From a virus, in IMG/VR virus record IMGVR_UViG_3300021599_001867, positions 6,180 to 27,340 of that record: a stretch of DNA of 21,161 bases. One strand, 5' to 3'. Both the position numbers and the translations under genes were made by a program. Below are positions 12 to 14,376 of the stretch, in pieces. Every line of letters starts with the position of its first letter. The stretch's first letter is position 1. The notes below the pieces were generated by a model, which worked only from the letters and a program-made list of their open reading frames with translations, was not told where the DNA came from and did not search any database.

Positions 12-893
12 ATGGCGTTTAGAGGAATCTATCCAGCACCAGATTTGGTTCACGCACCTTGCGGACTTCTAAGTGTCGCTCGGGTTATGACACATACAGC
101 AGCAAACTACGACGAGCGTTGGGTTCGTGGTTTTAGCTATGAGTTTGATTCACAACCAGAGGTAGAACTTTTCACAGTTAATGATGCAGCTGTGACAGGT
201 GGAACTGTTGGAACTTCTACACTTCCACAGTTTAAAGAGTACGATCCGTTCTTTATTCAAGTAACAGATACTCGTTCATATTTTGGCATCAATGGGGAAG
301 ACCGTTTTGCTGTTGCTAAGAAGCAATTAGAAGCAGCTACACAAAAGGCAGTAGAGCTAGAGCTTTGGGAAGGCGTAGCAGCAACTGCAGAAACAAACGG
401 AAATGACTTTTTAAGGGAAACAGGAGCAGCAACTGTAGTAAATACAGGAGCACTTGCTCCAGCAACAGCACTTATGCTGTTGGAACAAGCGATTTCTTCA
501 TCACCAGCAGGTATCAATGGAGTCATTCACATGACCCGCGATGTTGCGTCAATCCTCGGATCACGCATCATTTACTTGCCAGCAGATGGAGGAAAAACAG
601 GTAAGGCAATGACTCGTTTAGGAACTGAAGTCGTAATTGGCTCTGGTTACACAGGTGCTGGTCGTCTAACAGACGCTAACACCACTGCATCTGCTTCAAA
701 TAAGTGGATGTTTGCAACAGGACCAGTCGATGTACACCTAAGCAAGATCGAAATTGTCAACGAAAATCTTGGACAAGGTGCAACTGTAAGCACAAACACC
801 AATGACTTAACAGTCAAAGCAGTTCGTGCAGCAGCGGTATACTTTGATCCAAGTATCTTTTACACAATTCGTTTAGCACTACCTACAACCTAG
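12..893 (+). CDS. Major capsid protein
   Basis: The 293-residue product is the probable HK97-fold major capsid protein that builds the icosahedral shell. Support comes from overall resemblance to actinophage capsid proteins: an N-terminal segment with APCGLLSVA near residues 16 to 24, a charged helix around residues 95 to 120 (EDRFAVAKKQLEAAT), and a C-terminal beta-rich part ending DPSIFYTIRL, which is typical of these proteins. Length fits a capsid protein without a fused scaffold domain. The gene is followed at once by the major tail protein gene. The ATG at 12 is the likely start, but the frame stays open to the left window edge and no good ribosome-binding site is visible in the 11 bases before it, so a start upstream of the window cannot be excluded. 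Assignment is by recognition and not by alignment. Confidence 0.8.
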   Translation: MAFRGIYPAPDLVHAPCGLLSVARVMTHTAANYDERWVRGFSYEFDSQPEVELFTVNDAAVTGGTVGTSTLPQFKEYDPFFIQVTDTRSYFGINGEDRFAVAKKQLEAATQKAVELELWEGVAATAETNGNDFLRETGAATVVNTGALAPATALMLLEQAISSSPAGINGVIHMTRDVASILGSRIIYLPADGGKTGKAMTRLGTEVVIGSGYTGAGRLTDANTTASASNKWMFATGPVDVHLSKIEIVNENLGQGATVSTNTNDLTVKAVRAAAVYFDPSIFYTIRLALPTT

Positions 894-920: not shown

Positions 921-1940
921 ATGGCCACTCAGGACTTTGCGGCTAGCGTCCAAGGTGTGGCGATCCGAGTCACCAGACTGGACGCCGCTGGAAATCTGCT
1001 CAATGGGGCAGGAGACAGCTACACAACCTCGGCGTTCCTCCGCGCTTCCTTCACCCCTGAATATGAAGAGGGTGACGAAATTGTAGAGAAGTCAGCAGAC
1101 GGCACTGTATGTGTATCATACAAGGCGCCTGACACTCTAAAGCGAATCACAATGGAACTCGCAATTTGCGAACCAGACACAGAACTTTCACAACTAATCT
1201 CTGGTGGTTTGCTGCTCCGTAAGAACTACGGATCATTTGCATCACCAGATAACAAGTCAATCGGTTGGGCCGCACCATCCGTTGGCGATGACCCAACAGG
1301 TAATGGCATAGCACTAGAAGTATGGTCATTTGCTGTAGCAGATGGTCGTCGTGCAGCAACCAACCCTTACTTCCACTGGGTATTCCCATATGTCAAGCTT
1401 CGCCAAAGCGGAGACCGTGTAATTGAAAATGGAATGCTTGCAACAACATTTGAAGGTTATGGCCTAGGCAATGTTGCCTTCGCTGCTGGCCTAGATGGCC
1501 GCTGGGAGTTCCCTGTAGCAACTGAGCGTTCATACTCATACGCTCGTGCAACATGGGCACCATCAGGTCTAAAGGGCTTCTATCGCTGGTTTGACGAGTC
1601 TACAAAGACCGTAACCAACAAAGCTCTAACATCAAATGTTGCAACGCTAACAACAGGTTCAGCACATGGATATGAAGTAGGTCAAAGCGTGACAGTAAGT
1701 GGCGTAGATGCAACATTCAACGGAACTTACACAATTACAGCTACACCTACAGCAACAACATTCCGTTATGCAAAGCCAGACACTGGAGATGTAACATCTG
1801 CAGCTGTTAGCCCAGCAGGATCAGTATTGCGTAACCGTGGATACCTTGCAGTGACAGACAATGTTCCAGGTAACGAGGAGTACAACGCAGATCTTCCAGT
1901 CGACTTTATTATTGCGTCAACTGAGGATCCAACCGCTTAA
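921..1940 (+). CDS. Major tail protein with C-terminal decoration domain
   Basis: The 339-residue product is the probable tail-tube subunit. The first 230 residues resemble actinophage major tail proteins: a start with VQGVAIRVTRLDAAGN, then TPEYEEGDEIVEKS and LKRITMELAICEPD, then a WEFPVATERS segment. Residues about 233 to 300 form one copy of a beta repeat (SNVATLTT, AHGYEVGQSVTVSGV, FNGTYTIT, TTFRYA) that recurs in the distal tail and hub proteins downstream, so the tube is probably decorated on its surface. A purine-rich AAAGGAG sits about 9 bases before the ATG. The gene lies directly behind the capsid gene and is closed by a strong terminator, consistent with both being expressed to high level. 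It could instead be another tube-like structural protein. The position ahead of the neck genes is unusual. Confidence 0.75.
   Translation: MATQDFAASVQGVAIRVTRLDAAGNLLNGAGDSYTTSAFLRASFTPEYEEGDEIVEKSADGTVCVSYKAPDTLKRITMELAICEPDTELSQLISGGLLLRKNYGSFASPDNKSIGWAAPSVGDDPTGNGIALEVWSFAVADGRRAATNPYFHWVFPYVKLRQSGDRVIENGMLATTFEGYGLGNVAFAAGLDGRWEFPVATERSYSYARATWAPSGLKGFYRWFDESTKTVTNKALTSNVATLTTGSAHGYEVGQSVTVSGVDATFNGTYTITATPTATTFRYAKPDTGDVTSAAVSPAGSVLRNRGYLAVTDNVPGNEEYNADLPVDFIIASTEDPTA
1620..1815 (+). repeat. Single beta repeat in the major tail protein
   Basis: This segment encodes one copy of a roughly 60 to 70 residue unit with the order SNVATLTT, a histidine-glycine turn, GxxVTVSGV, FNGTYTIT, then TTFRYA. 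The same order of motifs occurs seven times in the distal tail protein and three times in the hub-like protein. In general annotation such units are often matched to the ubiquitin-activating enzyme E1 FCCH fold; that label is from memory and untested here. Confidence 0.75.
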
Positions 1941-2022: not shown

Positions 2023-3159
2023 ATGAGCAACCTATGGGTAACACCAGAAGAGTTAGACACCCCTTCGTCCGATTATGCTTATGAAGCTTGTAAGACAGCT
2101 TCTTATCTTCTTTGGGCCATGTCTGGCCGTAAATATAGTGGGATTACAACTGTTACAGAGCGTTATGTATCTTCATACGATCCATACCTTCGCTCAGGTG
2201 GATCAAGCCTTACCTATACACCAGTTTTAGTAGACGGAAACATTGTAAATATTGCATCTGGCGGTTTTAACCGTTATGCAGATGATGATTTCCAAGGGGA
2301 TGGAACATCAGCAAACTCCCGTGTTCGACTTCGTGGTCGTAAAGTAGTTAAGATTCACACTCTTCGTGATCTTGACGGAAATATTATTGACCCAAGTAAG
2401 TATTATTTATCAGATCATTCAACTATTCTAGGTGTACCTGGCGCTGGATGGTCCCCTTCTCAAGTAGAAGTCACTTACACATATGGGACTCAACCTCCAA
2501 CTGCTGGTCGTGCTGCAGCAAGACTTCTCGCCTCAGAGCTAGTAAAACTTTATGAAGGTGATGACACTTGTGCCCTTCCACAAAGAGTTACAGCTGTTTC
2601 TCGTCAAGGCGTTTCTTATACAATACTTGATAATCAAGATTTTATTGATGAGCTAAAAACTGGTTTATATGCAGTAGATCTTTTTCTAAAAACTGCTAAT
2701 CCAGATAAAGCTCGTGCTCGTGCTCGTGTCTTTAGCCCAGACCAGCCTCGTGCTCGCCGTATTACAGGTGCATCTCCACTTTACCCACTTAGCGCATTTG
2801 ATATTTATGTTACTGCTGATGGAGCGTCTAATCTTTATTATTTCTCTGAAATAAATGGAGATTTTATAGACTCGGACAACAACTGGACCATTCAAATTGA
2901 TTTTTCAGATATAAACAATAATAAAACAGTAGAAATACCTAATGCAGCTTCTATAGATAGAACTGAAAACACCGTTAGATTTAGTTGCACTTACAAGCAA
3001 GTATTAGATGTAATAGGACCTCGTGATCCAGGCATTTTAGACATGTATGCTGTAAGACCAAGTCTTGCAAACCCAGCGGTAGACGAAGTTGTACATTTGT
3101 TATCTAGCAACATCATCACTCACCTCGGTGAGAGAACTATTCCAATATATACTGTGTAA
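2023..3159 (+). CDS. Head-to-tail adaptor with extra C-terminal domain
   Basis: Residues 1 to about 246 resemble the adaptor that docks on the portal in siphovirus necks: an N-terminal helical part (LWVTPEELDTPSSDYAYEAC), a beta insert, a central helix (AGRAAARLLASELVKLYEG) and a tail segment (RARARVFSPDQPRARR) that in related actinophage adaptors tends to lie close to the C-terminus. Here the protein continues for about 130 residues with a beta-rich, asparagine- and aspartate-rich domain (WTIQIDFSD, NTVRFSCTY, HLGERTIPIYTV) that I do not recognise. Arginine codons are 17 CGN to 2 AGA up to residue 246, then 1 CGT to 4 AGA, which fits a later fusion. GAGGTGA precedes the ATG by about 4 to 5 bases. 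Adaptor identity is fairly secure; the role of the added domain is unknown, with capsid or neck decoration as one possibility. Confidence 0.7.
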   Translation: MSNLWVTPEELDTPSSDYAYEACKTASYLLWAMSGRKYSGITTVTERYVSSYDPYLRSGGSSLTYTPVLVDGNIVNIASGGFNRYADDDFQGDGTSANSRVRLRGRKVVKIHTLRDLDGNIIDPSKYYLSDHSTILGVPGAGWSPSQVEVTYTYGTQPPTAGRAAARLLASELVKLYEGDDTCALPQRVTAVSRQGVSYTILDNQDFIDELKTGLYAVDLFLKTANPDKARARARVFSPDQPRARRITGASPLYPLSAFDIYVTADGASNLYYFSEINGDFIDSDNNWTIQIDFSDINNNKTVEIPNAASIDRTENTVRFSCTYKQVLDVIGPRDPGILDMYAVRPSLANPAVDEVVHLLSSNIITHLGERTIPIYTV

Positions 3160-4104: not shown

Positions 4105-4455
4105 ATGACAACACGATTCAAAGATTTTGGTTCAGGAGAGAACCTAAACTCTGAACCAATTTCATTCAAACTTCATGGAGAAGATTTTGAGTGTGTAAAA
4201 AACCTTCAAGGAAGTGTAATTCTCGATATTGCAGCTAAAGCTGGAAGTGGAGATAGCACAGACGCAGCTGAAACTGTAAGAGATATTTTCTCTAAAGCTC
4301 TAACAAAAGAGAGCTATGCAAGATTCAACGCATTAATTGAAGACTCAGAAAAGATTGTAACTGTGGAAACACTTGGAGCAATCACTGCTTGGCTAGTAGA
4401 ACAGTATTCAGGCCGCCCTACGCAGGGGCCAGAGCACTCGCTGAGTGGGCAGTAG
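4105..4455 (+). CDS. Tail assembly chaperone (gpG-like, short product)
   Basis: The 116-residue product is the probable short tail assembly chaperone, which with its frameshifted longer form keeps the tape measure protein soluble and guides tube assembly. Evidence is position directly before the tape measure gene, small acidic helical character, and an overlapping second frame encoding a longer extension. The end of the protein, LVEQYSGRPTQG followed by eight residues, is the region where actinophage chaperones shift frame. AAGGA lies about 8 bases before the ATG. No catalytic motif is expected. Confidence 0.7.
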   Translation: MTTRFKDFGSGENLNSEPISFKLHGEDFECVKNLQGSVILDIAAKAGSGDSTDAAETVRDIFSKALTKESYARFNALIEDSEKIVTVETLGAITAWLVEQYSGRPTQGPEHSLSGQ

Positions 4456-4820
4456 AACTCTGGCCGTACATAAATGGAAAAGCTCTGGTGAACGGATTGA
4501 AATTAACTGAGATGAATATGTCAGACATGCTTGATGTCTTGCATTATTACATGGAAGAAGATTTTAAAGTCGACTCTGCAGAACATGCAGAAGCTCGTGA
4601 TAAGTCTAGAGCTATTCTATATAAACTCATTTACGAAAAAGAGTTTAAGTTTGGACAAAGTACTGGATATAAAAACCCTACCGCTTCTGGGTTTGAAGAT
4701 CCTATTGTCCCTGTAGATCCTTTAAAGGAACCTACAAAGTCCTATTTCCCACCGACGGACTTCAACCCAGATCTAGTCAAACCATTCGGGGATAATTTAG
4801 ACGCCCCTCTAGAGCGTTAG
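4105..4820 (+). CDS. Tail assembly chaperone, -1 frameshift product (gpGT-like)
   Basis: The frame from 4341 to 4820 is open with no credible start or ribosome-binding site of its own; its earliest usable codon is a TTG inside the upstream gene. It is in the -1 frame relative to the upstream chaperone, the arrangement of lambda G and GT. If ribosomes slip at the GGGG run (4425-4428), the product is 108 residues of the short chaperone plus 130 residues starting ARALAEWAVELW, 238 in all. The extension has helices (MNMSDMLDVLHYYMEEDF, ARDKSRAILYKLIYEKEF) and a proline-rich tail ending PLER. The stop at 4818-4820 is joined to the AGGAGG of the tape measure gene. Frame relation and position are seen; the exact slip site is inferred. 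Confidence 0.7.
4423..4465 (+). promoter_or_regulatory. Frameshift signal: GGGG slip site with stem-loop
   Basis: CAG GGG in the upstream frame (4423-4428) allows the glycine tRNA to re-pair one base back on GGG at 4425-4427, after which the second frame reads GCC. Six bases after the run, CACTC (4435-4439) and GAGTG (4443-4447) form a 5-base stem with a 3-base loop. A larger perfect 8-base pair, GGCCAGAG (4427-4434) with CTCTGGCC (4458-4465), encloses it. No canonical XXXYYYZ heptamer is present in the permitted interval 4341-4455. The structures are visible; their function in frameshifting is inference. Confidence 0.5.
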
Positions 4821-7800: not shown

Positions 7801-8125
7801 TGATATACCTGACTGGGTACCACTTATCGGTGGAAAAGAATTTAAATTGCCTCAGATTCCTAGAATTCCAAATTTTGCTAAGGGTGGAATTGTTTACCCA
7901 AGCATGGGTGGAACTTTGGCTAGAATTGCAGAAGCTGGAAGACCAGAGCGTATAGAACCTCTTGACCCAGACGGATTATCAAAGCGTGATAAGGCAATTA
8001 TTGATCGTCTTTCTGGCGGAGGAATTCAGATAACAGTTAACCCATCTCCAGGCATGGATGAGAGAGAACTTGCTGCAATGGTTTCTCGTCAACTTGCTTT
8101 CCAACTTCGTAAAGGTGCTGCATAA
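4832..8125 (+). CDS. Tape measure protein
   Basis: The 1097-residue product sets tail length and passes to the host membrane at infection. It is the largest gene in the window, follows the chaperones, and has the expected layout: a charged N-terminus, a glycine/alanine-rich hydrophobic stretch at about 85 to 140, long alanine-, glutamate- and arginine-rich coiled coil at about 155 to 410, more helices, hydrophobic segments in the last third (GIVGLVIGILVLLY, ISIVIPIIGAIAGAFIGF, MQTIVGVFIGIF), and a typical C-terminus with FAKGGIVYPSMGG and AEAGRPERIEPLD. The usual 1.5 angstrom per residue rule would give a tail of about 165 nm. No lysozyme or peptidase motif is evident. AGGAGG lies 6 bases before the ATG; another ATG at 4827 is out of frame. 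The stop overlaps the next start in TAATG. A patch with different arginine codons lies at about 5540 to 5840. Confidence 0.92.
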   Translation: MAVVGEASIIVRAITTGVKNDIQRSFDGTERIGERAGADAGAGFSRGFRRSSGDVASLFGRSLSQADVDRFTVAREKFLSLARVGYTLAASLTALGGVIGGVVGGLGSLVAIAGGATPALLGLSGAFLAVAAAAGVLRAAFGGVTEAIQAGAKVGQNAAAQAAQIKAATDRANDALYNYNETLRNNAKRKAEAVEAESDASQAVADAAISVERAERSYRDAIRGTEKALEDVTKAREDAKEAIQQLRFELEGGVISEKKARLEFEKARDSLQRVQDLPPNSRARREAELAFAEADLNLRRAIDKNNDLRKANTKANREGVDGNERVIAAQERLVQAQQNEADSLIDAERSVISYREAVEELTAARERLKKGGEIDRENARALELAARELKDATAALEEAQKPTGIDDFAAALDKLSPAAQDFVKYILSLKEAFEELRKKLQEAFFPKFTEAVKLLVETYLPLLEEDLINIAAKLGELSLLFAEAFTTPKKVEEIKTLFESFTPIIDALGKALIALSSAYITLQAEFTPYTIEFAEFLKKKAEAFQRTVELKESTGELAQIYKDATDIVRGLGEAFGNAFSALGTIIAASVGPGSSGEYFVTWLKDITAGWETTTKALSESGELQTFLLTLTENFTKILEIVGLIGLGMIQIAATPGFAEFLASLEEAVLIFNEIGLNLSQEGGALSALGNLIVAIAKLTAVITSSDAIVIFFNTLATIIEGLVFILDNPFGRALLTVTGGLLAISAAGGLAISAFRFYGEAVGGALLNVTKFIDIGLRGLGNYSGPATGAVLKLRQELVFLTYGIDFVGKAFLRSLGIVGLVIGILVLLYQNSESLRNALQSLIDGVLNVFNEAWKDITDTFKKVFDEGEGLRGLIGGIGDVISIVIPIIGAIAGAFIGFASGAIQTVIRALGAVGDVFKFVFSFMQTIVGVFIGIFTGKWDTALKGLKGGLEAFRSFFGNIISGLLAPFRGLINGIIDAWNGMSRNFKVDIPDWVPLIGGKEFKLPQIPRIPNFAKGGIVYPSMGGTLARIAEAGRPERIEPLDPDGLSKRDKAIIDRLSGGGIQITVNPSPGMDERELAAMVSRQLAFQLRKGAA

Positions 8126-10707
8126 TGTCTGAAGTATTTAATAGAGCTCAAGAGAAAAATGCTGTAGATCGCTCGCTTATACCTCTTCAAGAGCCTCATC
8201 TAACTGGAATGAAGTTAAAGGGAGACATATCCCTTGGAGATTTTCTTTTTAACACGATAGACGAATATGGTGTTGTATGGGTTATTACAGATTTAGAAGG
8301 TTGGTGGCAACACCCAGAACCTGATATGCCAGATATTCCTCGTGGTTTTGGCGATGGTTCGTATGACATTAAAGGTCGCTACCAAGCAAGAATTCTTACC
8401 CTTACCGGGTCGTTTATGACTCCAGATCCTTCTTTAGTAGAAGCAGCCCGTGACAGACTTATAGGAGCTACAGATTTAGTTTATAAAGGAGCTTGGCTAA
8501 AAACAGGTTTGCAAGAAGGAAACAAAAGATCATCTTTTGTAAGACTAAGCGGTGCGCCTCAAATTCAAACCGTAACACCTAGAGGTAGAACAGAATTTTC
8601 TATAGGACTAAAAGCAGCAGATCCGATTAAATACAACTGGAACGATTCTGATCCAGATGGATATGAAATTATAGAAATTTTAGGAAAAAATAGAGAAACT
8701 GGTGACACAGGTGTTAGAACCATTACAAACATAGGGAACACACCAGTTCCACTTGAATTTGAAATTCAAGGCCCTATATCTGGTCCAGCTAGAATTTATA
8801 ACAGAACTTCTGACAAACTTTTATACATAGTTTCTAACCTAAGAGGTAGATTAACTTCTAGGGTTATAAACAAACAGCTTGTTTTTAATACTGAAACTTT
8901 AGAAGACGAAGCTACTCTAACTACAACAACACCACATGGTTTGTTAGTGGGAGATTTAGTAACTATAAGTGGAACAGGTGATCCATTTGATGGAGACTTT
9001 GTAGTAACTTCAGTTCCTACAGAAACTACTTTTAAATACACTACAGATCCTCAAGCAACAGTTTCTGCAATAACAACAAAGAAACTACAAAACAGTGTGG
9101 CAACTGTAACAACTCAAACTCCACATGGATTTACGAATGGAAACTCTGTAATAATTCAGGGAGTAGATGCTGTCTTTGACGGTACTCATGTAATTACTTC
9201 TGCTACAGCAACTAGTTTTACCTTTTCAAAAAACAGAGTACCACCTAGATCTGTTTCTGGAGCCCTCCTTGTTTCTAACATTGCAACATTAACTACTACA
9301 GAACCTCATCAGTTTATACTTGGAGAAAATGTCACTGTCTCCAACATAAGTGCAAACTATAATGGAACATATGAAATAACAGATATTCCGTCTGCTACAA
9401 CTTTTAGCTATGCTTTGTCTAGAACCAGTACAAGATCTATAACTTCACGATCTATGACCAACGATGTTGTTACAATAACCATGTCAGCTGCTCATGGATT
9501 TATTCAAAATGAAAATGTTGCTGTATCAAATATTAATGATACTTTTAATGGTGTTTATACAATAGTTTCTATTCCTACAGATACTACTTTTACATATAAC
9601 ATATCTAGGGTTACTGAAAGATCTGTATCAGTAAGAGCAAGATTTTCTAATGTTGCAACACTTACTATGTCAGAGCCTCACGGGCTATTTCTTGGAGAAG
9701 AAATATTAGTTAAAAATCTTGGAACTGGGTACGATGGAAGCTCTAGACTTATTACTCAGGTTCCTAGCAATAGTACTCTTGCTTTTTCTAATTCAGGTTC
9801 AAATGAAACAGCATTAGCGGTAACAAATGGAAGCATAGTTCCAACTAAAAGATTTATATCTGCTAGACAGGTAATTGGTGGAGTTGCAACTATGTTTACA
9901 GCTGGTAATCATGGCTTCCTAGAAGGTGAATCTGTAACTATTACTAATCAGGGAGCACCATTTAACGGAACATTTACTATTCTATCTGTCCCGAGTACAA
10001 ACTCTTTTAGTTACGCTGTAACTTCATCTAATATAAATTACACTTTTGGCATAGGAATAATAAATAGAAATAGAGTTGGAACTTTAACAACTATAACTAC
10101 GGATGTCCCTCACAACTTATCTAACAACCAATATGTGATTATTTCTGGAATGGACTCTGCTGGAGCTTTGCTAAACGGAAATTATCAAATTACAGTGACA
10201 AGTTCTACTACATTTACATATAATACACTTACTAGTGGAGATATAGAAGCTGCTGTAGTTAGTGCAAACAATGTAAAAGTTATTGGTGGTTTTGCCGCTA
10301 TACCAAGAACAATACTTTCTGCTTCTGTAAGTGGATCAGCTACTGTCGGGGGAAGTCTTCCTTTCTCTGCAGTTAGCGGTTTTGCTCAGGTTCCTCCAGA
10401 TATTTTGAGTCCATCTAATGGGGCAATTGACAGCGGCGGTATAGCTATAAAAACAGCTGACATAGCTTTTACTCCAGGTTTATCTGGGGCATTTTCCGAT
10501 TTTGGTCCAGATATATTAGAGGTAAACACTCTTACTAGAGATGTTGCTCTTAATGGGTCTTTTGATGGAGCTAGAGGTAAACTAGATGTTCTAACAGACT
10601 TTTTCTTTTTAGAACCAGGAGACAATCAACTTGAGTTTTTAGATGAAAATAATACTGTTAGTACGGCTTTGTTAAAAGTGTTTTATAGATCTGGCTGGCT
10701 TGGCTAA
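8125..10707 (+). CDS. Distal tail protein with seven inserted beta repeats
   Basis: The 860-residue product resembles the distal tail (Dit) protein that forms the ring at the tail tip. Residues 1 to about 245 match the ordinary Dit start: an N-terminal fold with DGSYDIKGRYQARILTLTGSF, then the beginning of the C-terminal beta-sandwich (TITNIGNTPVPLEFEIQG). Residues about 795 to 860 carry the normal Dit ending: LEVNTLTRDVALNGS, FFLEPGDNQLEF and a final tryptophan segment, SGWLG. Between these lie seven repeats (about 248 to 720) and a low-complexity linker (about 728 to 795). The protein is therefore two to three times the usual Dit length through insertion in the C-terminal domain, as in other evolved Dit proteins that carry binding modules. 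A role of the array in host surface contact is plausible but not shown. Confidence 0.75.
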   Translation: MSEVFNRAQEKNAVDRSLIPLQEPHLTGMKLKGDISLGDFLFNTIDEYGVVWVITDLEGWWQHPEPDMPDIPRGFGDGSYDIKGRYQARILTLTGSFMTPDPSLVEAARDRLIGATDLVYKGAWLKTGLQEGNKRSSFVRLSGAPQIQTVTPRGRTEFSIGLKAADPIKYNWNDSDPDGYEIIEILGKNRETGDTGVRTITNIGNTPVPLEFEIQGPISGPARIYNRTSDKLLYIVSNLRGRLTSRVINKQLVFNTETLEDEATLTTTTPHGLLVGDLVTISGTGDPFDGDFVVTSVPTETTFKYTTDPQATVSAITTKKLQNSVATVTTQTPHGFTNGNSVIIQGVDAVFDGTHVITSATATSFTFSKNRVPPRSVSGALLVSNIATLTTTEPHQFILGENVTVSNISANYNGTYEITDIPSATTFSYALSRTSTRSITSRSMTNDVVTITMSAAHGFIQNENVAVSNINDTFNGVYTIVSIPTDTTFTYNISRVTERSVSVRARFSNVATLTMSEPHGLFLGEEILVKNLGTGYDGSSRLITQVPSNSTLAFSNSGSNETALAVTNGSIVPTKRFISARQVIGGVATMFTAGNHGFLEGESVTITNQGAPFNGTFTILSVPSTNSFSYAVTSSNINYTFGIGIINRNRVGTLTTITTDVPHNLSNNQYVIISGMDSAGALLNGNYQITVTSSTTFTYNTLTSGDIEAAVVSANNVKVIGGFAAIPRTILSASVSGSATVGGSLPFSAVSGFAQVPPDILSPSNGAIDSGGIAIKTADIAFTPGLSGAFSDFGPDILEVNTLTRDVALNGSFDGARGKLDVLTDFFFLEPGDNQLEFLDENNTVSTALLKVFYRSGWLG
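8858..10280 (+). repeat. Seven tandem beta repeats in the distal tail protein
   Basis: Seven units of about 60 to 77 residues each follow the order SNVATLTT, PHGF, GENVTVSN, FNGTYTITSVP, TTFTY. The histidine-containing turn codons fall near 8932, 9121, 9304, 9490, 9676, 9907 and 10109, so most units are 183 to 189 bases long and the fifth and sixth are longer. The copies are diverged in DNA, so this is an old or fast-evolving protein-level array and not a recent duplication. Confidence 0.85.
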
Positions 10708-10729: not shown

Positions 10730-12760
10730 ATGACATCAGGACTGACTTTAACAGATGTAACTTATAGGTATTTTTTAACAGACCTTGTAAGTAACTCTGT
10801 GATTGCTGAAATACCTTTTGACGGTGTTTCATATGAAAGAGTGTTAAGACGCGCTGGATCTTTTAGCGGAAGCATCCCTTTAATAGCTGCTACAGAAAAA
10901 CTAGATTTATATAAATCAACAATGCCGGGCAGAACTGGTCTCTATGTAATGAGAAACGACCAATGCGTGTGGGGAGGAATAATTTGGTCTAGAACATACA
11001 ATGAAAGCAGTAAAACTATTTCCATCGATGCTTCTGAATTTACAAGTTATTTGTATCACAGAAATATTTGGCAAACCATAATTTATGGATCAGAATTTAT
11101 AGGAATTTCTTCTTTCTCTGTTACTAGCAATGTAGCGACAATTATTACTGAAGAGCCTCACGGTTTTAGAGTTGGAGATTTTGTAAAAATAACTTTTACT
11201 AATCCAGTAGTAGACGGTACTCGTCAAGTAACTGCGGTCTTGTCAGCAACTCAGTTTAGAGTTTCTGTAAACTTTTCTAATATATCATCTACCGCTATTA
11301 CTGCTGGTGCTGCAAGAAAATTAGTAGATACATATGATTTTGTTAGAGACCTTATCTTTAGAATCTCTAATGATTTAGGTGGTATTAATTTTGCAAACGA
11401 AGTTATAAAGCCAGCTCAAACTTTTGAACTTTCTGTTGTAAGAAAAAAGAGACAAAACGGATTAGTAACAATAACTACTAAAGAAGATCATTCTATAGTT
11501 CCAGGACAAGAAGTAGAAATACTAGAAGTAGATAGTGAATTAGATGGTTTTCACACCGTGACTAGTTCAGTAGATTCTAAGACTTTTACTTTTGAGCTAA
11601 GCGGGTCTAATATACAAGAACAAACTCTTGGTGGCATAAGAACTCTATATGTTACATCTAGATCTTTACAGAGTAATGTAGTTACCATAAACACTCATAT
11701 AGCCCATAACGCTACTGTAGGACAAAAAGTTAATTTATCTGGTATAGATTCATTCTTTGCTGATAGGTTAGAAATTATTTTTGATGGAGAGCATGTAATA
11801 ACTTCTGTACCTACAGCAACAAGTTTTACTTATGATAAAGAAAGTGTTCTTAATTATGCTGATACTGCAGTTTCTGGAGCTACTGCAAGTTTTGGGAATA
11901 GGGTTGTATACGGTACCTATGGATCATATACAGCTAATTCAGATATAGGTTTAGAAGTAGGAACAAACAAGACTAGCGGTCTATATCAAAATACTTTGGT
12001 TTTAAGAGGACACGAGCTTAGAACATACGGTGAAATTTTAGAAGAGTACTCTAACAATTTAAATGGTTTTGAGTATCGAATAGATTGCGATTATGACTTT
12101 ACTACAGCTTCTTTTACTAGAACATTTACCCTTCTTAACATAGAAAATCCAAATGAATTACAAGATGATTTTGTTTTTTCAGATGAAGAACGGTTGGGAT
12201 ATAACGAAGTTGTTTTTGAATATCCAGGTTCTATAACTACTTTTACAGTGGAAGAATCTGCTGAAGATGCTGCTACTAGATTTTTTGTTAGCGGAAATAT
12301 AAGTGATCTTAACGATGCAGCTAGTCAGCCTTACGCAGCTGCAGTAGATAGTGATCTTTTGAATAATCAGAGCGGTCCTAGCTGGCCTCTTCTAGACCAA
12401 GTAGAGTCCGTGGAGACAACAGGTGACGAGGATTCTTTATATCTGTATGCTCAAGAATTTCTCTATGAATCTAAGCCACCAATAGGTGATATAAAAATCT
12501 CTGTAAACGGTTCTTTAACTCCTGTAGTTGGATCATATTTACCAGGCGATTGGTGCTCTTTAATTATTGATGACCCATTTATGCTTGCAAGACTAGCCGA
12601 TGATCAAGAACCAAGAGACGATATCTTGGTTAGAAAAATAAATTCATTTAAAGTTACTGTCCCAAATAATCCTGCATTTCCAGAAAAAGTAGAAATAGAT
12701 CTTATAACCGACTGGAAAGTAGATAGCACAGGTAAGATAGTTCCAAAGGAGAATGTCTAA
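10730..12760 (+). CDS. Baseplate hub-like minor tail protein with three beta repeats
   Basis: The 676-residue product resembles the actinophage minor tail protein following Dit, the counterpart of hub or tail-associated (Tal/gp27-like) proteins. The N-terminal 125 residues show the usual hub start: VSYERVLRRAGSFSGSIPL, then LYVMRNDQCVWGGIIWSRT. The hub fold is broken twice: one beta repeat at about 126 to 200, then hub sequence with YDFVRDLIFRISNDLGG, then two more repeats at about 237 to 390, then hub sequence again (GHELRTYGEILEEYSNNLNG and EVVFEYPG). The C-terminus ends in a strand-rich section with LPGDWCSLIIDDP. No peptidoglycan hydrolase motif is visible. GAGGA precedes the ATG, and the stop overlaps the next start by one base. 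Confidence 0.7.
   Translation: MTSGLTLTDVTYRYFLTDLVSNSVIAEIPFDGVSYERVLRRAGSFSGSIPLIAATEKLDLYKSTMPGRTGLYVMRNDQCVWGGIIWSRTYNESSKTISIDASEFTSYLYHRNIWQTIIYGSEFIGISSFSVTSNVATIITEEPHGFRVGDFVKITFTNPVVDGTRQVTAVLSATQFRVSVNFSNISSTAITAGAARKLVDTYDFVRDLIFRISNDLGGINFANEVIKPAQTFELSVVRKKRQNGLVTITTKEDHSIVPGQEVEILEVDSELDGFHTVTSSVDSKTFTFELSGSNIQEQTLGGIRTLYVTSRSLQSNVVTINTHIAHNATVGQKVNLSGIDSFFADRLEIIFDGEHVITSVPTATSFTYDKESVLNYADTAVSGATASFGNRVVYGTYGSYTANSDIGLEVGTNKTSGLYQNTLVLRGHELRTYGEILEEYSNNLNGFEYRIDCDYDFTTASFTRTFTLLNIENPNELQDDFVFSDEERLGYNEVVFEYPGSITTFTVEESAEDAATRFFVSGNISDLNDAASQPYAAAVDSDLLNNQSGPSWPLLDQVESVETTGDEDSLYLYAQEFLYESKPPIGDIKISVNGSLTPVVGSYLPGDWCSLIIDDPFMLARLADDQEPRDDILVRKINSFKVTVPNNPAFPEKVEIDLITDWKVDSTGKIVPKENV
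11105..11325 (+). repeat. Beta repeat 1 of the hub-like protein
   Basis: One copy of the shared unit: SNVATIITEEPHGFRVGDFV, then a VDGTRQVTAV segment and a QFRVSV strand. It separates two parts of the hub fold. Confidence 0.7.
11435..11880 (+). repeat. Beta repeats 2 and 3 of the hub-like protein
   Basis: Two adjacent, more diverged copies: NGLVTITTKEDHSIVPGQEV with LDGFHTVTS and KTFTFEL, then SNVVTINTHIAHNATVGQKV with FDGEHVITSVPTATSFTY. The second has an eight- to ten-residue insertion before FDGEH. Confidence 0.7.
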
Positions 12761-14376
12761 TGGCAACGCGTCGTAGAGCTAGAAGAAAAAGTATTCTAGG
12801 AAATTTAACTGATGTAGAGAGAAGACTTCGCTACTTAGAAAAAAGACCAGCTCCTTCTAGACTATCTAATAAAGTAGTTGGAGTAGATAACATAAAGCCC
12901 TTTGCTGTGGCTACAGATGCTATCCAACCTCAAGCTATTGTTACTGAGAAAATAGCAAGTCTTGCTGTAGAAACAGAACAGATAGACAACCAAGCCGTAA
13001 CTAATGCAAAACTTGCAGAAAATGCTGTTCAATCATTACAAATTGCGCCTAATGCTGTTGGAACCTCAGAAATTGCAAATGGAGCTGTCACTACAGATAA
13101 GATAGAAGGCGGAGCTGTAACTAATGCTAAGTTAGCTTCTCTTTCTGTTGCAGAAGGAAACTTACAGCAAAACTCTGTATCTACTGACAAAATTGTAAAC
13201 GGAGATGTTACAGATATAAAAATAGATACGGTTTCTGCAACAAAAGTTACAGGTCAAATTGTAGACTCTCAAATAGCTTCTGGAGTAGATGGATCTAAAA
13301 TTACAAATAATACTATCTCTAACGATAAGCTTGTCAATGACACCATTACTGGAGCAAAAATTGCTACTGGAGCTATAGGAAATCAAGAGCTAGGTATTGA
13401 TGCTGTATTAGAAACCAGAATTATAGACGGAGCAGTTACTACAAATAAAATTAGAGCTTCTTCTGTTACAGAAACAAAAATGGCAGCAAATTCTGTACGA
13501 GGAAATCTTCATATTATTGCTGGAACAGTTTTAGCTGCTCAACTAGGTACAGGCTCAGTTACTAATGAAAAGATAGGTGCTTTATCTATTACATCTGGAA
13601 AAATTGCTGATCTTGCTGTTACAAATGCAAAAATAAATAATTTAGCTGTTACAACTGGAAAAATTGCTGATCTTGCTGTTACAGGTGAAAAAATAGGAAA
13701 TGCTGAAGTTACATTTCCTAAAATAGCATCTACTGCTTACGGTCAACTTGTAAACGCAGGACTGTTACCACAAACTCCATTAAGTAAAACAGTTATCAGT
13801 GGAAGTCAGCCAGCAGCTGGTCTTGTACGACTTAATATTGCTGTAGGGCTAGGTGCTAATGAAGTAGCAGCTGGAAACCATACTCATAGTGGCGGTGGAA
13901 CAGTTGGGGCTCACACTCACCCTGCAACTATTAATCTTGGAAGCATATTTGTTACATCTACTGGTCAACAGATAAACCAACAAACTCCTATAAGCGTAAC
14001 TAACCACCAACACCCATACACTCGTGTTATAGGTGTAACAGTTAATCAAAACACTTCTACTATAAGATTTAAAAAAGAAATAGAAGACTATAAAGTAGAA
14101 AATATAAACAAACTTCTTAACTTAAAACTCAAGAAGTTTAAGTACAAAAGAGAGCTTAAGCACCTTCATCCAAATAGAGAATGGATGTATGGTTATATGG
14201 CAGAAGATCTAATAGAAAACGGTGTTGAAGAAGTAATAGGTTATGATTCTAAAGGTCTTCCAGAATCTGTAAATTACGGTCTTCTATCTGTTTTTGTGTT
14301 AGAACTAGTCAAAAAGCAGCAAAATGAGATAGACTCTCTCAAAGAAGAGATTCAGAGACTGAAGGAAAAGATATGA
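12760..14376 (+). CDS. Tail fibre with decapeptide repeats and self-cleaving S74 domain
   Basis: The 538-residue product is a probable trimeric tail fibre. A basic N-terminus and short coiled coil (LGNLTDVERRLRYLEK) probably attach it. Residues about 39 to 325 are roughly 25 decapeptide repeats of the type AVTNAKIADG. Then come three HxH motifs (GNHTHSGGG, GAHTHPA, NHQHPY), which in other fibres bind metal ions along the trimer axis. Residues about 430 to 538 match the intramolecular chaperone (Peptidase_S74) domain: STIRFKKEI, FKYKRELKH, MYGYMAEDL, LPESVNYGLLSVFVLELVKK and a final coiled coil. Ser433 and Lys438 have the same spacing of five as the Ser911/Lys916 dyad of K1F endosialidase, so autocleavage before Ser433 is expected. 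AAAGGAG lies 9 bases before the ATG. No enzymatic receptor domain is visible. Confidence 0.85.
   Translation: MATRRRARRKSILGNLTDVERRLRYLEKRPAPSRLSNKVVGVDNIKPFAVATDAIQPQAIVTEKIASLAVETEQIDNQAVTNAKLAENAVQSLQIAPNAVGTSEIANGAVTTDKIEGGAVTNAKLASLSVAEGNLQQNSVSTDKIVNGDVTDIKIDTVSATKVTGQIVDSQIASGVDGSKITNNTISNDKLVNDTITGAKIATGAIGNQELGIDAVLETRIIDGAVTTNKIRASSVTETKMAANSVRGNLHIIAGTVLAAQLGTGSVTNEKIGALSITSGKIADLAVTNAKINNLAVTTGKIADLAVTGEKIGNAEVTFPKIASTAYGQLVNAGLLPQTPLSKTVISGSQPAAGLVRLNIAVGLGANEVAAGNHTHSGGGTVGAHTHPATINLGSIFVTSTGQQINQQTPISVTNHQHPYTRVIGVTVNQNTSTIRFKKEIEDYKVENINKLLNLKLKKFKYKRELKHLHPNREWMYGYMAEDLIENGVEEVIGYDSKGLPESVNYGLLSVFVLELVKKQQNEIDSLKEEIQRLKEKI
12874..13734 (+). repeat. Decapeptide repeat region of the tail fibre
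   Basis: About 25 units of ten residues, consensus [AS]VTxxKIxxx, with valine at position 2 and isoleucine or leucine at position 7, suggest a triple beta-helix or spiral shaft. Two places depart from the period, near SATKVTGQIVDSQI and near NLHIIAGTVLAAQL. Within it, 29 bases at 13595-13623 recur exactly at 13655-13683, 60 bases (two units) apart, showing recent duplication. Confidence 0.85.

Follow-up and report, generated by a model that had tools for sequence, protein, structure and literature searches.

The 860-residue protein whose reading frame is open at positions 8125-10707 (+) of the window, the whole 21,161-nucleotide stretch of viral DNA analyzed here, is an SPP1-type distal tail protein (Dit) whose C-terminal domain is split by an insertion of seven repeats. 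The best explanation of the data as a whole, to which we assign a probability of roughly two in three, is that it is an evolved Dit in which repeat units 1-4 are nested and whose arms likely serve as glycan adhesins. The N-terminal ring domain and the first half of the C-terminal galectin-like domain are encoded at 8125..8859 (+, residues 1-245), as judged from a match to phrog_5577 (minor tail protein), identity to an array-free relative (L028) and a structural match to SPP1 Dit; the second half of the C-terminal domain is encoded at 10504..10704 (+, residues 794-860), as judged from L028 and the Pfam profile PF22768. Pairwise alignment shows that residues 7-259 and 794-859 are 52% and 41% identical to L028, respectively. 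PF22768 (SPP1_Dit, C-terminal domain) scores 29.8 bits against a cut-off of 25, but matches only residues 796-858, using profile positions 42-97 of 97. SPP1 Dit (gp19.1, PDB 2x8k) aligns with the predicted model over 237 of its 243 residues (Z 17.3, 3.7 Å, model range 31..859), a match that takes in the whole Dit fold from the ring domain to the galectin domain, and the Dit of mycobacteriophage Douge (8zdo) matches with a Z of 17.1. The complete core fold is common to all three proteins, and the core match covers nearly all of the SPP1 and Douge chains, which have 243 and 290 residues as compared to 860 in the window protein. An earlier note on this DNA had proposed a Dit with a seven-repeat array in its C-terminal domain, a claim that holds up: the PF22768 match is cut short, seven units could be located, and the two ends (residues 1-245 and ~795-860) form a single Dit in the model, whereas failure to do so would have spoken against the claim.

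The genomic neighborhood is that expected of a Dit gene, which lies between those for the tape measure and the Tal/baseplate hub. In the window it is preceded by a 1097-residue ORF and followed by a minor tail protein gene, and in the relative DSL-LC01 the annotated order at this locus is tape measure, minor tail, minor tail. A tail-fibre-like gene is located further downstream (12760-14376). The source is an environmental contig, and the protein might in principle reflect no biological feature but a misassembled, chimeric contig or unrelated genes fused together; this is exceedingly improbable, as other contigs refute it: the arrangement is common to 37 complete distinct Dits, among which those with six and seven units fall in supported clades of a tree built from the N-terminal domain.

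The point of interruption was located by comparison with relatives, of which 80 were kept from 253 found; the insertion site could be read in 67 complete proteins, including the window protein. PF22768 is unbroken in all three array-free relatives scanned (L028, residues 208-313, profile positions 2-97; L101, positions 4-97; L056, positions 16-97), whereas in the unit-bearing Dits scanned the match starts at position 40 (L032), 41 (L025) or 42 (L062), with the exception of the one-unit protein L107, where it starts at position 9. Because the start shifts in unit-bearing as compared to array-free Dits, the split maps to around profile position 41, within the C-terminal domain, and this break, together with the empty-site relatives, agrees with the earlier suggestion that the array projects from the C-terminal beta-sandwich. 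The window protein is thus an 'evolved' Dit by virtue of a module inserted in a loop of its galectin-like domain, a loop that is empty in L028, L056 and L101 and holds a single unit in DSL-LC01. Among the 67 complete relatives the site holds 0, 1, 2, 6, 7 or 8 units, so that repeat number does vary, as had been anticipated, and the 37 distinct complete Dits with six to eight units (the window protein and 36 others) are referred to below as array Dits.

The seven units are encoded at 8881..9048 (unit 1, residues 253-308), 9070..9237 (unit 2, 316-371), 9253..9426 (unit 3, 377-434), 9439..9612 (unit 4, 439-496), 9625..9855 (unit 5, 501-560, with its closing strand in the long junction 561-577), 9856..10032 (unit 6, 578-636, closing strand 637-641) and 10057..10230 (unit 7, 645-702, closing strand 707-711), all on the (+) strand. 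Each scores 37-75 bits against a profile built from the other six, as compared to maxima of 7-18 bits in 2000 shuffles of that unit, so the repeats are not due to chance. A conserved histidine marks the units (residues 271, 334, 395, 457, 519, 596 and 663); its spacings of 63, 61, 62, 62, 77 and 67 residues correspond to 189, 183, 186, 186, 231 and 201 bases, and four of the six fall within the 183 to 189 bases that the earlier note gave for most units. A tandem repeat search found no tandem DNA repeat in the array, and repetition at the DNA level is weak, being limited to two long pairs (56-60 bases at 73%), which indicates that the array is old. The units of the window protein best match the unit at the same position in relatives (7 of 7 against L003; 6 of 7 against L005, L014 and L021; 5 of 7 against L024; 4 of 7 against the six-unit L025), which argues for an old and ordered array whose positional signal fades with distance. 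Recent tandem duplication or slippage was rejected on both counts.

To examine the fold of the units, two AlphaFold2 models of the single chain were built from overlapping alignments of 19 and 78 rows (pTM 0.51 and 0.53), and contacts within them were read solely from alignment ranges and DSSP. The repeats are predicted to adopt the barrel fold seen in the E1 'FCCH' domain and in the K1F endosialidase barrel that binds polysialic acid. In the second, better model, the FCCH domains of UBA6 and UBA1 align with units 5 and 7 (Z 9.0-10.3, 1.9-2.7 Å, 72-80 residues), and the K1F/phi92 endosialidase barrel aligns at 497..575 in unit 5 (Z 9.1-10.3, 2.0-2.1 Å over 77 residues). The FCCH alignment is contiguous in unit 5 (495..576 in the first model, 495..575 in the better one) and in unit 7 (642..721). 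At the sequence level, PF16190 (E1_FCCH) scores 36.8 bits against a cut-off of 29.5 for the whole protein, with a single stretch that corresponds to unit 7 and no separate stretch for the other six, while a DNA-level search for this family gave 21.9 bits, below the cut-off. Pfam reported no E1 catalytic domain in the 860-residue protein, which is therefore not a ubiquitin-activating E1 enzyme. The structural matches listed for the units comprised FCCH, endosialidase and other small barrels, with no BppA-type carbohydrate-binding module (CBM) among them. A PDB sequence search with the single protein gave no match at E values up to 1; the 78-row profile matched a tail-tube chain (9n71_B, E 0.00019) at profile positions 253-416, approximately units 1-3. 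The top Foldseek match was a Bxb1 tail-tip chain, with an rmsd of 24-36 Å over the whole length, and in the VIA alignment this chain matched over 272 residues (Z 14.4). Foldseek matches to viral predicted structures were mostly long, at large rmsd, and included many tail proteins; several of 841-1042 residues are named Distal tail protein, and one match has an FCCH domain in its name. Similar arrays may be present in further Dits among these structures.

The models suggest that units 1-4 are nested, each inside the preceding one, with units 5-7 at the tip. In both models a strand after strand E is present only in units 5, 6 and 7, and none lies between strand E and the next strand A in units 1-4. 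The chain beyond unit 7 forms a return segment (10237..10503, +, residues 705-793), delineated by DSSP on both models, first-model alignment ranges, a closing-strand profile and conservation in six-, seven- and eight-unit Dits; it contains the unit 7 closing strand (707-711), two short strands (718-725) and four main strands (729-741, 745-755, 773-776 and 780-793). In the better model this region is confidently predicted (10-residue pLDDT means of 76-94 over residues 701-800, with 8 of 10 blocks at 90 or above), and in the first model confidence is low at the last return strand (means of 69 and 43 for residues 781-800). In the first model, E1 FCCH domains align on the discontinuous ranges 310..777 (unit 2, 72 residues), 370..758 (unit 3, 76 residues) and 433..741 (unit 4, 68 residues), which tie three of the four return strands to units 2-4. 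Unit 1 and its proposed return strand are not spanned by any of the 50 VIA matches listed for each model. The barrels of EF-Tu, aIF2-gamma and lumazine protein share the same discontinuous ranges in the first model (Z 6.5-7.5), and since these barrels are unrelated, the ranges report the barrels of the model rather than ancestry. Nesting is thus proposed because closing strands are absent from units 1-4, the return segment has four main strands and three of these are tied to units 2-4; the models, the first-model ranges and the junction lengths would fit the A1-B1-C-B2-A2 order of a recursive nested insertion, in which residues downstream of each inserted domain close its host domain.

An unlikely alternative is that seven self-contained barrels are strung one after the other, the conserved beta segment behind them being a separate element packed on the Dit or on the arm; the strand pairing would then be a modelling artefact. 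AlphaFold2 may pack repeats wrongly, the pTM is only 0.53, the units are in tandem and mostly conserved in position among relatives, and in the better model none of the VIA alignments listed places a return strand in a barrel, the FCCH matches among them falling on units 5 and 7 only. However, a string of independent barrels does not account for units 1-4 lacking a strand between E and the next A, for junctions too short to hold one, unlike those of units 5-7, or for the need of return-segment residues in the first-model alignments of FCCH to units 2-4. In all 37 complete array Dits junctions 2-4 are 15 residues long, junction 1 is 15-18, junction 5 is 29-33, and junctions 6 and 7 are 20-22. 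Moreover, the return in one-unit Dits is 11-21 residues (n = 25, median 12), or about one strand. The return segment of the single eight-unit Dit (90 residues) is no longer than those of seven-unit Dits (85-92), whereas that of six-unit Dits (75-79) is ~10 residues shorter, a difference that nesting leaves unexplained. When the closing strands of stand-alone units were made into a profile, it found better matches in 36 distinct return segments than in shuffles (mean best score 5.2 versus 0.36 bits; 1.58 versus 0.18 matches above 2 bits), a weak signal that in eight examples came mainly from the strand closing the last unit and from strands one and two of the main four. The dN/dS ratio is highest in the return segment (0.18), which is odd for a tight lace. 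The earlier note had read this region as a low-complexity linker, a description we reject, as residues 705-793 are conserved and predicted to form beta structure, including the four main strands. Its 'long flexible arm' likewise finds no support: both models, along with the near-invariant junctions, favor a continuous shaft laced by return strands over a floppy chain, although the overall orientation of the shaft is uncertain at a pTM of 0.53.

In the nested reading, the Dit core would form the tail-tip ring, and an arm of seven FCCH-like barrels would emerge from one loop of the peripheral galectin-like domain. Units 1-4 would each contribute five strands on the outward pass and be closed by a strand of the returning chain, with the last loops of units 1, 2 and 3 accommodating units 2, 3 and 4, respectively, and the self-contained units 5-7 forming the tip inside unit 4. 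Strands 729-741, 745-755, 773-776 and 780-793 would close units 4, 3, 2 and 1, respectively, such that one return segment would lace the four barrels of the shaft shut starting with the innermost, and units at the tip could be gained or lost. Seven-unit Dits are least alike near the proposed tip (identity of 52% in unit 5, 48% in its junction, 51% in unit 6 and 48% in residues 705-724), which speaks for an adhesive arm. The arm may have been built by a module inserting into its own copies, as suggested by Microbacterium phages, which also lend support to nesting: in Big4 and Cece, a unit left intact in Zooman and Pumpernickel holds another complete unit. Zooman and Big4 are recorded with M. 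foliorum NRRL B-24224 as their laboratory host. We favor, with moderate confidence, the full form of this proposal, a stiff, return-laced glycan-binding rod derived from a self-inserting module and nested recursively (galectin domain > unit 1 > 2 > 3 > 4 > units 5-7).

The arms are most likely low-affinity, high-number adhesins for glycans on the surface of the host, which is probably actinobacterial. Dit hexamers are known for homologues, and we infer six arms per tip, a number that the earlier note also gave; its suggestion of host binding is likewise compatible with the data. In K1F the corresponding barrel (aligned at 425-510) houses a polysialic-acid site and a host-discrimination hotspot, according to a preprint (PMC12632334); the same work describes this barrel as largely permissive to mutation, which counts against an adhesive role. 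Evolved Dits have been described to aid adsorption, with improvement on EPS-bearing hosts (PMC10688798). The module also occurs elsewhere in the tail: one unit is inserted in the major tail protein gene (1590..1859, +, residues 224-313), where flanking residues 1-223 and 314-339 are 75% and 77% identical to DSL-LC01, which has 22 residues between them, and three units are present in the downstream Tal-like minor tail protein (11105..11842, +, residues ~126-178, 236-294 and 308-371). The Tal-like protein also has a sub-threshold Pfam match to T4 gp18 domain I (E 0.017). Together, the arm and these copies may keep the tail tip attached to the envelope until binding becomes irreversible.

A somewhat unlikely alternative is that the arm is structural, positioning other parts of the tail tip such as fibres or Tal, much as the galectin domain of p2 Dit bears an arm that anchors receptor-binding proteins, as outlined in PMC7291167. 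The tail-fibre-like gene that follows at 12760-14376 and the purifying selection seen in all regions are compatible with such a role. In contrast, relatives that retain the same neighboring tail genes have no array (L028) or one unit (DSL-LC01), so there is no general need for it in assembly; the major tail protein contains the same module as an insertion; and the Dit core varies less than the insert. Positive selection on the arm was considered and not seen, which counts against adhesion: dN/dS lies far under 1 in all regions, with no sign of diversifying selection, although dS near saturation makes this a weak test.

Evolved Dits with CBMs, as described in PMC7291167, are found mostly in phages of lactic acid bacteria (the lactococcal 936/skunaviruses, Lactobacillus J-1) and in streptococcal phages, and like the window protein they carry their modules in loops of the peripheral galectin domain. 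The number of CBMs described there is one or two, and their fold is often that of BppA, whereas the 37 complete window-type Dits have six to eight FCCH-like barrels, four of them apparently nested, and a dedicated return segment. Large extra parts are also present in other actinobacteriophage Dits, including the Bxb1 tail-tip chain (9d93_Mc, 671 residues), other long Dits and the mycobacteriophage Corndog DTP, for which a preprint describes one Rossmann-like alpha/beta insert and no repeat array (PMC13252515). The K1F/phi92 barrel has the same fold as the window units, but is a single barrel in a tailspike enzyme, and the E1 FCCH domain shares with them the sequence family (unit 7) and the fold, a small barrel that implies no ubiquitin chemistry. 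The closest architectural parallel that we note is SI3 of cyanobacterial RNA polymerase, in which small beta domains form a six-level nested insertion (PMC13114784) that is not a simple tandem, as its chain folds over itself (PMC10802570, preprint). SI3 differs in domain family, protein and function, and is an analogy rather than a relative. Ig-like domains on phage tails, such as those of the Douge MCP and TTP, belong to a different fold family from the window units, but like the window module they are surface modules on the tail tube and other proteins. As far as PMC13033339 describes them, the Douge domains bind host glycans and are single, on the capsid and tail tube, with no Dit array. 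In the open-licence literature searched, FCCH-like arrays were not found described for any Dit, and the titles listed on the FCCH domain (PF16190) dealt with ubiquitin systems or plants.

These findings extend the evolved-Dit principle to an environmental, probably actinobacterial phage lineage, in which one Dit holds six to eight barrels instead of one or two modules. A window-type tip would bear 42 barrels, provided that the Dit forms a hexamer as it does elsewhere. If the nesting is true, a long arm has grown from one loop and is kept stiff by passing out and back in one shaft, with variation left to the tip, and on the virion surface the rod would parallel the SI3 arm of cyanobacterial RNA polymerase, which is itself nested. 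The existence of 0-, 1-, 2-, 6-, 7- and 8-unit Dits, together with the unit-in-unit difference in cultured Microbacterium phages, makes growth of the arm directly testable.

The distal tail protein (Dit) is an 860-residue protein encoded at 8125-10707 of the window, in a virus record of 27,340 bases, and is flanked by a 1097-residue ORF in the tape-measure position upstream and a Tal-like minor tail protein downstream. The earlier note held that a repeat array interrupts its C-terminal domain, and both points were borne out: the array is real, with seven units scoring far above shuffled sequences, and the Dit C-terminal profile PF22768, which is continuous in three array-free relatives, picks up again at profile position 42 at residue 796. 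One array-free Dit (L028) aligns to residues 7-259 at 52% identity and to residues 794-859 at 41%; because the first alignment reaches into the insert by ~14 residues and, on the L028 side, shares positions with the second, the exact break point is uncertain by that amount. In L028, two units sit instead in a tail-fibre-like protein (1147-residue ORF). The Dit of Actinomycetia phage DSL-LC01 is the same protein with a single unit. A first structure model, made from 19 alignment rows, had a poor N-domain and a whole-model mean pLDDT of 72.6. For a second model (78 rows; mean pLDDT 89.1, pTM 0.53), relatives having few units, or none, contributed their N- and C-domains as separate rows, all of which were placed at the expected ends of the window Dit. 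In structure comparison, this model (range 31..859) covers 237 of the 243 residues of SPP1 Dit (Z 17.3, 3.7 Å); further matches are Douge (Z 17.1), monocin (17.0), 80alpha (15.2) and p2 (14.7). The two ends thus model as one Dit domain, and the outcome that the earlier note named as refuting did not arise.

The units (residues 253-308, 316-371, 377-434, 439-496, 501-560, 578-636 and 645-702) are 25-42% identical to one another and are predicted by modeling to adopt FCCH-like barrels. The E1 FCCH profile PF16190 scores above cut-off in this Dit, unit 7 being the sole matched stretch. In fold searches, Z below 8 may reflect a common arrangement only; the FCCH domains of UBA6 and UBA1 (Z 9.0-10.3) exceed this value, as do two endosialidase barrels, those of phi92 (Z 10.3) and EndoNF/K1F (Z 9.1-9.4), both aligned at 2.0-2.1 Å over 77 residues. 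EndoNF and the K1F endosialidase are one and the same protein. The K1F stretch aligned to the units, 425-510, contains residues 460, 468 and 504 if numbering is equal. A preprint (PMC12632334) places these residues in a β-barrel polysialic-acid site that is a host-discrimination hotspot, and describes the barrel as mostly tolerant of mutation. Roughly the stretch of units 1-3 in the 78-row profile matches a solved tail-tube chain (PDB 9n71_B, E 0.00019).

The earlier interpretation was correct that the ends form one Dit and failed for residues 705-793, which it took for a low-complexity linker; instead, this return segment is present in 37 complete array Dits and bears strands in both models. 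The last unit lies 75-92 residues from the C-domain match in these 37 proteins, as compared to 11-21 in 25 Dits carrying a single in-site unit. In both models the segment contains the strand that closes unit 7 (707-711), then two short strands (718-725) and, after these, four main return strands: 729-741 (ending at 742 in the first model), 745-755, 773-776 and 780-793, the last broken into 780-784 and 790-792 in the first model. The second model predicts these return strands with high confidence; the blocks that cover the last one have mean pLDDT values of 69 and 43 in the first model. In both models, no strand follows the fifth one in units 1-4 before the next unit begins, and units 5, 6 and 7 have an extra strand of their own (561-565, 637-641 and 707-711, that of unit 5 being the start of a single strand 561-584 in the first model). 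The tally is therefore four barrels without a closing strand and four returning main strands. The models thus predict a nested closure, in which units 1-4 would be threaded one inside another and closed by the return strands, with units 5-7 as the tip.

On the first model, E1 FCCH aligns over ranges 310..777 (72 residues), 370..758/759 (75-77) and 433..741 (68), each a unit plus a return piece, and over an unbroken range on unit 5 (495..576, 75-76 residues). Unrelated small barrels share these ranges at lower Z, so the alignments speak for closed barrels in the model and not for ancestry. On the second model, the FCCH rows among the matches listed lie on units 5 and 7, which is neutral toward nesting. 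Counted from and to fixed profile positions, junctions 2-4 each span 15 residues in 37/37 Dits, junction 1 is 15 (six-unit Dits) or 16-18, junction 5 is 29-33, and junctions 6 and 7 are 20-22. The eight-unit Dit L062 has one extra long-junction unit and a return segment that is not lengthened, so unit additions are located in the tip; its last two units are both closest to unit 7 of L024 (61% and 52%). The return segment of six-unit Dits is ~10 residues shorter than that of seven-unit Dits, which counts against a perfect nesting fit. A profile built from 244 stand-alone unit ends found closing strands above shuffles in 36 distinct return segments, at few bits and mostly in the early part of each.

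Across the 18 seven-unit Dits, identity averages 81% in the N-domain, 70, 63, 71 and 62% in units 1-4, 52% in unit 5, 48% in junction 5-6, 51% in unit 6, 63% in unit 7, 48% and 60% in residues 705-724 and 725-789, and 80% in the C-domain; the dip fits a tip. In a set of 49 close pairs, of which each region could use 45-49, dN/dS is 0.06 in the N-domain, 0.10 in units 1-4, 0.13 in units 5-7, 0.18 in the return segment and 0.04 in the C-domain, and the top value in the return segment counts somewhat against a tight structural lace. In Microbacterium phages Cece (L033), Pumpernickel (L034), Big4 (L036) and Zooman (L037), the C-terminal arrays comprise mainly half-units (profile positions ~1-30), followed by one full unit and by one or two second halves, and two of these phages show a unit inside a unit. 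In Big4 and Cece, a whole unit lies between the halves of a unit left intact in Zooman and Pumpernickel, a difference that may reflect insertion or loss. Because the split falls at profile positions of about 30 to 32, and the site proposed for the window follows the fifth strand, this case shows a habit of the module rather than the same event.

Repeat number, which the earlier note proposed comparing among relatives, does vary. The window and 111 loci (L003-L113) yielded 76 distinct Dit ORFs, 9 of them truncated where contigs end; the 67 complete Dits carry 0 (4), 1 (25), 2 (1), 6 (18), 7 (18, including the window) or 8 (1) units at the insertion site. As the best 80 of 253 relatives were retained, Dits with intermediate numbers may exist. 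In an N-domain tree (73 rows, quick method, contig-end-cut rows included), seven- and eight-unit Dits group together as a single clade (22 rows, support 100), with the six-unit Dits (20 rows, support 97; jointly 42 rows, support 93) as its sister, and Dits with none, one or two in-site units fall outside; the deeper order is unsure, with several long branches. Judged from this tree, the large expansion looks like a single event, after which unit number stayed near-constant. The Microbacterium phages, with one weak in-loop unit and eight to ten more matches (E < 0.001) in the C-terminal part, reached their arrays by a different route. In L088, L097, L098 and L099, the N-domain begins near residue 338, with two extra units in an N-terminal extension and one in-loop. 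The 1698-residue Dit-like ORF of L053 (also L054, L055) has one in-loop unit and a C-domain match ending at residue 386, and a Dit-like ending reappears at its extreme end, which points to another insertion, a very large one.

The module recurs in other tail proteins. The major tail protein (921-1940) carries one FCCH-like unit in an insertion (within residues 224-313), where the DSL-LC01 homologue has an empty site; this unit is 80-92% identical to those of L003, L005, L014, L021 and L024, and is better conserved than most Dit units. The Tal-like protein (10730-12760) has three units, and that of DSL-LC01 has two, the counterpart of the window's first (residues ~126-178) being unrecognised as a unit. 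Nearby, a 378-residue head-tail adaptor (2023-3159) has ~130 C-terminal residues beyond the adaptor profile, which stops near residue 246; overlapping ORFs in different frames at the tail-chaperone position (4105-4455 and 4389-4820; region 4105-4820) could be a programmed frameshift pair; and a tail-fibre-like protein (12760-14376) contains tandem repeats of 30/60 bases (13558-13713) and a C-terminal chaperone-of-endosialidase (S74) domain above cut-off. DSL-LC01 is the closest annotated relative at Dit (49%); its authors (PMC10611076) describe a metagenome-assembled lake phage whose predicted host is actinobacterial, and assign it to a family that they propose as 'Nanparkviridae'. As the remaining 20 annotated records matched at Dit are Microbacterium and Arthrobacter phages, an actinobacterial host is likely.

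The array's position in Dit, at the galectin-loop site, and its strict length pattern are direct observations. The arm units would bind glycans weakly and multivalently; earlier work offers precedents, in evolved Dits (PMC7291167, PMC6669499, PMC10688798) and in Douge Ig-like domains that attach to mycobacterial glycans (PMC13033339). Alternatively, the arm may be a structural holder instead of an adhesin. The window protein is a new variant of evolved Dit. If true, the nested arm would be the surprising part of this finding; among the parallels found, its architecture comes nearest to that of SI3, an arm of RNA polymerase in cyanobacteria (PMC13114784, PMC10802570).
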